Assembly (NCBI RefSeq): GCF_002159335.1
Contig: NZ_NFHP01000002.1
Location: 1 to 64,000 of the forward strand
Source: Collinsella sp. An7
GTDB lineage: Bacteria > Actinomycetota > Coriobacteriia > Coriobacteriales > Coriobacteriaceae
DNA length: 64,000 nucleotides
Direction of reading: 5' to 3'
The notes under the pieces were generated by a model that saw only the letters and a list, made by a program, of their open reading frames with translations, had not been told where the DNA came from and searched no databases. Positions 40,699 through 42,962 of the stretch are shown piece after piece. Position numbers and translations under genes: made by a program. The stretch's first letter is position 1. Every line of letters starts with the position of its first letter.

Positions 40699-41982
40699 TT
40701 ACTCGGTGACGTCTGCCTGAGGCTCCGCCTTACCGCCCGGCAAAATGAGGTTGAGCAAGATGCCCGCCAGCGCCGAGGTCGCCATGCCGGGGAGCGTGTA
40801 GTCGCCGATGGGGATCGAGATGCCGCTCGTCTCCATGCCCACGCCCACGATGATAACGACCGACGCGATCATGAGGTTGCGGTTGACGTCGAAGTCCACC
40901 TTGTTGGACACGAGCATGCGCAGGCCGTTGGAGGCGATGAGGCCAAAGAGCAGCAGGCACACGCCGCCCATCACCGGTCCGGGGATGGACTGGATGAGCG
41001 CCGCGAGCTTGGGGCAGAAGCCGCCGATCACGAGCGCGAAGCCGCCCGCGTACCAGAAGATCTGCGTGGAGTAGACGCGCGTGACGCTCATGACGCCGAT
41101 GTTCTCGGCGTAGGTGGTGGTGGGAGGACCGCCCAGGAAGCCCGAGATCATGGTCGAGATACCGTCGCCGGCGAGCGAGCGCGGCAGCATGGAGCGGTAG
41201 TCCTTGCCCACGATCTCGCCCACGGCGAGCAGATGGCCGATGTGCTCGATCACCACGACCACGGCCACAGGCGCGATGAGCGCGATGGCGCCCGCGTCAA
41301 AGCGCGGTGCGGAGATGTTGGGCAGGCCGATCCAGGCCGCCTCCGCCACGGGCGCAAAGTCCACGAGCCCGAGCGGCACCGACACGAGGTAGCCCACGAT
41401 GATGGCGAGCAGTACGGGGATCGTCCCGATGATGCCGCCCATGCTCGAGAACACCACGGCCGCCACGAGCGTGATCGCCGCGACGATGGCGCCGAGCCCG
41501 TAGAACACCGAGGAACCGTCCGAAAGGTCCTGCATAAAGGCCATGTCGACCGCCGTGGCGGAGAGCCCCACGCCGATCACGACCATCACCGAGGCCACGA
41601 GCACCGGCGGGAGCAGCCGGTCGAGCCAGCCGGTGCCGACAAGCCTGATGATGCCCGCCACCGCGAGGAACACCATGCCCGCCACCACCACGCCCGACAT
41701 GGCGGCATCGAGCCCCTGCGTGGCCCCGACCGCGATGATGGGGCTGATGAACGCAAACGAGCTCCCGAGGTAGCTCGGAATCTTGTTGCCCGTAACGAGC
41801 AGGTAGCAGATGGTGCCGATGCCCGAGCACATGATGGCGACGTTGGGGTCGAGCCCCGTGAGCACCGGCACGAGCACCGTCGAGCCGAACATGCTCATCA
41901 TGTGCTGGATGCCCAGCGGGATGGCGCGCCCGACCGACACCCGGTCGTCAACGCCGATAACCTCTCGCTCGTGTCTTGCCAT
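40699..41982 (-). CDS. uraA: Uracil/xanthine permease (NCS2 family)
   Basis: ATG at 41982 follows gaggggag; the longer frame to 42189 lacks a site. The 427-residue protein has about 14 membrane segments. NCS2 landmarks are IQHMMSMFGSTVLVPVLTG near residue 25, VVVVIEHIGHLLAVGEIVGKD with the substrate-binding Glu, and GDGISTMISGFLGGPPTTTYAENIGV near residue 270, including the NCS2 motif. It is predicted to import uracil by proton symport; UraA-type and xanthine-type members are hard to separate by eye. Confidence 0.85.
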   Translation of the reverse strand: MARHEREVIGVDDRVSVGRAIPLGIQHMMSMFGSTVLVPVLTGLDPNVAIMCSGIGTICYLLVTGNKIPSYLGSSFAFISPIIAVGATQGLDAAMSGVVVAGMVFLAVAGIIRLVGTGWLDRLLPPVLVASVMVVIGVGLSATAVDMAFMQDLSDGSSVFYGLGAIVAAITLVAAVVFSSMGGIIGTIPVLLAIIVGYLVSVPLGLVDFAPVAEAAWIGLPNISAPRFDAGAIALIAPVAVVVVIEHIGHLLAVGEIVGKDYRSMLPRSLAGDGISTMISGFLGGPPTTTYAENIGVMSVTRVYSTQIFWYAGGFALVIGGFCPKLAALIQSIPGPVMGGVCLLLFGLIASNGLRMLVSNKVDFDVNRNLMIASVVIIVGVGMETSGISIPIGDYTLPGMATSALAGILLNLILPGGKAEPQADVTE

Positions 41983-42392
41983 GGAGACTCCCCTCTTCCC
42001 AGGCTGCCGCACCTGACGCTCGGCAGCGGTTGGGCCCATTGTCGCACAACGCGGGGATGCGGGCGCCGGCGGCGGTGTCCGCCAGCACCCGTCGACGTAC
42101 AGCAGGATAGAGCAGGACGAGAAGCGGCGCATCGGATGCGGGCGATTCGATACGGGCGGGAGAGCCCTCGCCAGAACGCGTGAGATCATCGTCGGTGGTC
42201 AAAATATCGCGTAGGGGTAACTGTAAACCCCCTATTGAGAGGCTTTTGCAGCCACGGACGCCAAAACCCGCAGGATTCGCATCGCTCTTGTCGCGCATCG
42301 CGCCCAAATGATGGGTTATTCATTACCCCTACGCGATATTATGGCCAGTCAGCGACCGATCGACCGAGCGATGCGCCGCCGCAACGCCCGCC
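41983..42392. other. Gene-free region upstream of the permease gene
   Basis: No gene is seen. It should contain the permease promoter. I looked for a pyrimidine attenuator or purine riboswitch and found no convincing one. Bases 42196-42347 hold a MITE-like element, listed separately. Confidence 0.5.
42196..42347. mobile_element. MITE-like element with long terminal inverted repeats
   Basis: The sequence aatatcgcgtaggggtaa (42203-42220) is exactly complementary to 42323-42340. The match extends outward to about 25 bp with two mismatches (tggtcaa versus tggccat). The interior of about 100 bp has no reading frame of note. Size, perfect ends and lack of coding capacity fit a miniature inverted-repeat element mobilised in trans. 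No clear target duplication is visible. Confidence 0.6.
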
Positions 42393-42962
42393 CTACGCGA
42401 GTGCCGCCTCGAGCTCCTCGACCGTCATGAGCGCCGAGCCGTAGCACTTCTCACAGTGCTCGAGCGCGCCCTCCTGCGTGCCGCAGAGAAAGGTCATGGT
42501 CGCGTCGGTCACCACCGTCGAGCCGTACCCCAAGAAGTACGCGTCGGCGAGCGTGTGGAGCACGCAGATGTTGGTGTCCGCCCCAACGGCAATGACCTCG
42601 CGCACGCCCAGCTCGCGCAGGGTGAGGTCAAGATCGGTCTGGAAGAAGCCCGAGTAGCGCCGCTTGGGGATGATGCGGTCGCCCGGCTCGACGACAATCT
42701 GGGGAAAGATGCGGCTCTCCCCCGCGATGCCGTGCTCGCCCCAGAGCTCAAGCTCGCGGTCGAGCCCCCGCACGTGGGCGTCGTTGCAAAAGATCACGGG
42801 CACGCCGGCGGCGTGGCACGCGTCAACGGCTCGCGCGACGGCAGCGCGGTAAGCAGCGGTAGCGGCATCGGGGTCGTAGAGCGTGTCGTCACCTGTTGCC
42901 TCGATGGCATCGATAACGAGCAGCGCGGTAGCGTTCTTGGCGAAGGTCTTGTTGCAGGGCAT
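42393..42962 (-). CDS. Isochorismatase-family cysteine hydrolase
   Basis: ATG at 42962 follows tggagg. The 189-residue protein has the family triad: Asp in ALLVIDAIEATG, Lys in IIPKRRYSGFFQTDLD and the nucleophile Cys in VGADTNICVLHTLADAYFLGY. The family includes nicotinamidase (PncA), ureidoacrylate hydrolases and other amidases. The CNDAHV segment could bind a metal as in nicotinamidase. The exact amide substrate is uncertain. Confidence 0.8.
   Translation of the reverse strand: MPCNKTFAKNATALLVIDAIEATGDDTLYDPDAATAAYRAAVARAVDACHAAGVPVIFCNDAHVRGLDRELELWGEHGIAGESRIFPQIVVEPGDRIIPKRRYSGFFQTDLDLTLRELGVREVIAVGADTNICVLHTLADAYFLGYGSTVVTDATMTFLCGTQEGALEHCEKCYGSALMTVEELEAALA

Follow-up and report, generated by a model that had tools for sequence, protein, structure and literature searches.

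The inverted-repeat element of the window (the whole 64,000-nucleotide stretch of Collinsella sp. An7 DNA analysed here) belongs to a class of small intergenic elements, apparently undescribed, in which inverted arms, resembling protein-binding sites and different in almost every lineage, surround one constant core. The architecture of variable arms, constant core and helical phasing is well supported. Full-text searches of the literature, with subscription journals and preprints outside the scope, turned up no account of these elements, nor of the core in bacteria.

The element has the order arm, spacer, core, spacer, inverted arm. The left arm (42196-42220, plus strand) and the right arm (42323-42347, minus strand) are 25 nt each and 92% complementary, with an exact stretch of 18 bp. 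The original prediction of exact 18-bp inverted ends, extending to about 25 bp with two mismatches, was therefore borne out, as was the non-coding interior of about 100 bp, since the 102 nt between the arms hold no plausible gene, the only reading frames being mechanical ORFs of 69 and 119 aa that overlap each other. The outer end of the left arm (TGGTCAAAAT) is common to several other arm families. An exact search of the window for the 17-bp arm word gave two matches, against a shuffle mean of 0.06 with up to 3 mismatches allowed, and two such matches were reached in 0 of 100 shuffles of the window. The core motif CAAAACCCGCAGGATT (42262-42277, plus strand) is centred exactly where the arms have their dyad (offset 0) and is flanked by a left spacer (42221-42261) and a right spacer (42278-42322), both unconserved in sequence between families. 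We consider that the bounds of the element are better set as 42194-42347, from a full-length alignment at 77% identity with a second copy at C1:14285-14439, and that they should include the conserved core, which had been left unmarked. An imperfect palindrome, TAGGGG...CCCCCTA, can be read from the plus strand in and just inside the left arm (42212-42234), with a near-copy in the second element.

The element is flanked by a uracil/xanthine permease family gene (40699-41982; PF00860 Xan_ur_permease, 5.3e-92), whose 5' end faces it, and by an isochorismatase-family hydrolase gene (42393-42962; PF00857 Isochorismatase, 1e-30), whose 3' end faces it. Since both genes are on the minus strand, the element is upstream of the permease, about 210 bp from its start (taken as 41982), and 3' of the hydrolase, about 45 bp from its stop (42393). 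The earlier placement of the element in the promoter region between the two genes is thereby corrected, in that it is upstream of the permease but not in the promoter of the hydrolase. The permease was matched beside the hydrolase at this locus and at 0 of 13 others, with a permease query that was frame-slipped at its start, and in relatives the hydrolase has other neighbours. Next to one hydrolase orthologue, in G012, its 3' side (L158) carries another inverted-repeat element, whose arms are different and which lacks the exact core.

The genome of An7 (2.37 Mb, 99.7% complete) holds the further copies that had been sought, namely one with the same arms, at C1:14285-14439, and at least 15 elements of the class. 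The two copies with these arms (family A1) have identical 17-bp arms and also share interior sequence. The second (L002:1501-1655) lies about 105 bp beyond the 3' end of a cstA-like gene and directly follows a terminator-like hairpin. When up to 3 mismatches were allowed, the arm 17-mer matched the four arm ends and two further places with 3 mismatches each, while the reversed control gave 4 matches. The original prediction would have been contradicted by a single copy conserved at the same site in distant species; instead, the 17-bp arm, with at most 1 mismatch, was absent from every other genome among the 65 of the family. BLAST with the whole copy (E 0.001) gave matches in 3 of 60 relatives and in 3 of 395 genomes of the order, An7 included in both, and beyond An7 these were short interior stretches only. 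Four exact 17-mer loci among named species genomes were dismissed as chance-like, the partner arm being missing at the right distance. No arm copies were found in phages, plasmids or viral contigs. A Zixiibacteriota contig (L031) with a chance match to the arm word carries a short GTAGGGGTAAAGCATGCTTTGCCCCTAC hairpin.

The lead to the core came from several of the interior-only BLAST matches, which fell within other inverted repeats with quite different arms. The core is a near-palindromic motif of 15-16 bp, CAAAACC(S)CAGGATT, and it is this internal motif, not the ends, that is the uniting conserved part of the class. The loose pattern AAACCN{1,2}CAGGA had 8 matches in the An7 genome, six of them between inverted arms: both A1 copies and, with other arms, C1:78100, C1:140927, C1:158086 (imperfect) and C5:17364. 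Across the family, CAAAACCN{1,2}CAGGAT gave 87 matches in 38 of 65 genomes and the reversed pattern 2. In the order, CAAAACCSCAGGATT was present in 68 of the 395 genomes, which represent 20 of 123 genera, with 0 for the reversed control in every row listed; almost all were in families f1 and f5, the others being two genomes of f2 and one each of f7 and f10. By an ungapped score, an enclosing inverted repeat was found at 107 of 135 core sites compared with 6 of 330 positions taken at random from these loci, and the remaining 28 core sites comprised 7 with a nearby repeat that did not enclose them and 21 with none. By a gapped score, 79 of 87 family core sites (a set that takes in three looser An7 sites and from which duplicates were dropped) reached 14 or more. 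The core was also found in 18 viral stretches, none of them within an inverted repeat by this score (0 of 18 at 14 or more, maximum 13). A null that compared the left side of one site with the right side of another under the gapped score was high because families share arms, and hence it was not used.

The arms fall into many unrelated families that are genome-specific and have little sequence in common beyond the core. When 12 genomes were searched for eleven arm types, arms were found in 11 of the 12, as inverted pairs, and none in the twelfth, among the matches listed. The An7 family A2 (GGAGAAATCAACGATT) was found at 11 loci in its own genome, among them C16:122036-122186, C12:311455-311597, C13:76543-76694 and C1:140848-140999; all are short elements, and at some of the loci a third copy of the arm is nested within. 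Members of a family keep a fixed length, whereas their spacers drift. The length was 130-132 bp in 10 elements of A2, 204-206 bp in 10 of family A3 and 130-133 bp in 10 of the G012 elements, and eight A2 copies of equal length had a pairwise identity of 89% in the arms and 29% in the spacers. The same was seen at an orthologous locus with the same flanks in three genomes, where arms were identical at 47-48 of 48 positions and the core at 15 of 15, with spacers identical at 87, 88 and 127 of 143 positions and the length unchanged. Therefore the arms, the core and the length are kept and the remainder is free.

The positions of arms and core are also in helical register. The core is centred on the arm dyad in many families (G012, G004, G078, the A1 family of An7 and others), and in the off-dyad families it lies at about 5-6, 10-11, 27, 42.5 or 47 bp from the dyad. 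For 21 off-centre offsets, one per arm family or sub-position as grouped by hand, R was 0.80 at a period of 5.25 bp (Rayleigh about 1e-6), a value reached in 0 of 20000 simulations; offsets of 17.5, 20 and 32.5 fitted more poorly. The half-turn steps can be understood because a near-palindromic core, read both ways, needs equal phase to both arms. The rule is also met in family f5, whose elements have shorter arms and in some cases two cores placed symmetrically at 42.5 bp either side of the dyad (L340, L346). The total length is phased as well, since elements of G016 measured 157, 167-169, 177-178 and 189 bp, with R=0.94 at 10.5 bp (n=16). Arms and core are therefore set at whole or half helix turns, as if the DNA were looped, and the elements resemble looping operator pairs in being helically phased paired sites. 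Helical phasing between the ends is required in short transposons, and repression loops of the GalR-HU type consist of two sites at a helically phased distance with a third protein at the apex of the loop. If the DNA is indeed looped, the elements would have in common with GalR-HU loops two helically phased sites and an apical bending site, but they occur as many dispersed copies at unrelated genes, with lineage-dependent arms and no known protein. The internal eliminated sequences of Paramecium also have a length periodicity of about 10 bp, which has been explained by looping of the duplex between the ends, but as described there they are eukaryotic, are excised each generation and are without a constant core and variable arms (PMC3464196).

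Register and arm variation together point to folded duplex DNA, not to an RNA hairpin. Strong folds are predicted, as a structured RNA or regulatory hairpin would have, and the folded strand of the window element is stabler than its shuffles (z about -4.0 and -4.6), a value expected of any inverted repeat. However, when arm variants were compared with the family consensus in four families (46 elements), the variant was confined to one arm in 76 of 91 cells, shared by both arms in 10, where independence would predict about 3, and different between them in 5. This small excess of shared variants leaves room for pairing or conversion between the arms. Such variation is unlike that of paired stems, an RNA would give no reason for the helical register, and in Rfam neither the element nor 20 related loci had a match at the gathering threshold, only weak ones, so we reject the hairpin as very improbable. 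A closer parallel is offered by REPINs mobilised by resident Y1 (RAYT) transposases. As reported for the GI-GIII types of Pseudomonas fluorescens, the spacing of REPINs is fixed, for example at 71 or 110 bp, their spacers are poorly conserved and compensatory changes occur (PMC3116915). The elements described here likewise have paired inverted units at fixed spacing around a variable spacer, intergenic dispersal and lineage-specific types, and a Y1_Tnp gene is present in 53 of 65 family genomes, with one in An7. In contrast to REPINs, they are longer, at about 130-206 bp in those f1 families for which measurement was closest, have a constant core for all arm types in helical register with the arms, and do not keep their arms complementary. 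Furthermore, none of 20 Y1_Tnp loci had arms of its own genome within about 1.4 kb, compared with 15 of 15 in the positive control, and G027 and G069 hold elements without any Y1_Tnp match. Since many of these Y1 genes also have other repeats at their flanks, mobilisation by RAYT was rejected; this reading is already largely refuted and we regard it as improbable. Enterobacterial BIMEs also combine inverted units and a linker in intergenic DNA, but their REPs are described as palindromes of 20-50 nt, preceded by GTAG and recognised as single-stranded DNA (PMC8266576).

The original prediction had proposed a MITE, and this holds in so far as the element has terminal inverted repeats on short non-coding DNA, lies between genes and recurs elsewhere in the genome as one of a dispersed set. 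A MITE in the strict sense, a short, multi-copy derivative of a classical DDE transposon, is not supported. A full-length transposon with the same ends, which had been proposed as a check, was not found, the exact arm matches in the An7 genome being confined to the two short copies, and no consistent target duplication was seen by eye in A1, A2, A3 and G030-type copies. In addition, unlike in MITEs, the interior drifts while the length is kept, and there is a conserved internal core. Copying within a genome is partly demonstrated, since six elements of G030 at several loci have homologous spacers, as does an element of G079 with an orthologue among those of G030, and since the two A1 copies of An7 have interior sequence in common. 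The G030-type copies also bear on the possibility that the elements are invertons, with arms that serve a DNA invertase in flipping a small promoter segment. In 3 of 7 copies the inner, arm-bounded segment of 135 bp is flipped relative to a conserved outer frame (L080, L081, L078 and L052 compared with L076, L095 and L257), and the inverted arms, the in-register spacing and a core that might act as a recombination enhancer would all suit an invertase. However, in four sets of orthologous loci, with 16 elements in all, no set contained more than one orientation, which makes frequent phase switching unlikely, no invertase gene was seen beside elements, and rare flips could equally arise by replication slippage between the arms, so that we consider invertons quite improbable. 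A stronger case can be made for chromosomal loops that serve the host where they stand, in an architectural or regulatory role. In these, as in the repression loops of operator pairs, a fast-evolving DNA-binding protein would bridge the arms and an architectural protein would bend the core, the spread of the elements being ancient or incidental. The purifying selection on arms, core and length at the orthologous locus, where spacers drift, argues for a function in place over mere spread, the helical register fits, and 31 of 34 intergenic elements have a gene 5' end on at least one side by a crude gene call, by which a further 3 elements overlap a called frame. On the other hand, arms and positions turn over between genomes, within a genus too. 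A comparison of 40 flanking proteins with Pfam found ordinary genes or no family, and no arm-binding protein, recombinase or autonomous element. The flanking families are ordinary and unrelated housekeeping ones (e.g. tRNA synthetases, MurB, ApbE, histidinol dehydrogenase and carbamoyl-phosphate synthase), and thus give no sign of a regulon or of a recombinase gene residing beside the elements. Across genera, elements of different arm families shared a neighbour in no more than a handful of cases, about chance by a rough estimate. A host function in place is therefore possible but, in our view, rather unlikely.

The best explanation, to which we would give an even chance, is that the elements are dispersed intergenic sequences acting as protein-folded duplex DNA. 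Putative proteins would bind both arms, and a conserved protein would bind the near-palindromic core at or near the apex of the loop. Because all sites are on matching faces of the helix, some 130-200 bp could fold into one complex. As to which enzyme is involved, what the elements do and how exactly they spread, we infer that the arms may be synapsed by a fast-changing protein akin to a recombinase or transposase, with the core as its accessory site, and that the elements may form populations similar to those of REPINs with a different enzyme. An effect on permease expression, if any, would be secondary. More specifically, we tentatively propose, at somewhat less than even odds, a previously unknown bacterial nucleoprotein system in which a conserved core-binder and fast-diversifying arm-binders fold about 130-200 bp at some 10-20 places per genome, with arms replaced wholesale between species and the core, geometry and phase fixed.

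If such a nucleoprotein system exists, it would be a mobile element of a new class or else a new way of organising the chromosome, and a fast-evolving one. Dispersed repeats are normally recognised by their conserved ends. Ordinary searches for repeats and MITEs miss this class since its ends vary by lineage and only the core and the geometry are constant. These genomes would also provide a natural experiment in helical twist, with the prediction that insertions of 5 bp break function and insertions of 10 bp are harmless. The elements would offer a direct route to the proteins involved, and they would be relevant to the question of how compact bacterial genomes come to retain small non-coding elements.

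Some further features were observed in the related genomes. On contig C1 of G086, seven A3 elements, among the matches listed, lie at 985-1562 kb, that is within 577 kb of a 2461-kb contig; the smallest-arc p of about 0.001 is post hoc, and clustering at the replication terminus, examined in the one single-contig genome with a full arm list, is suggestive only. The outer frame of the G030-type copies holds a further core-like word and a ATGCATAAAA-like word. Finally, many of the RAYT-like Y1 transposase genes (L292-L311) are flanked by inverted repeats of their own, often of the GGGGACGGGTTCATTTGACTC type, and these constitute a second dispersed-repeat system in the same genomes.
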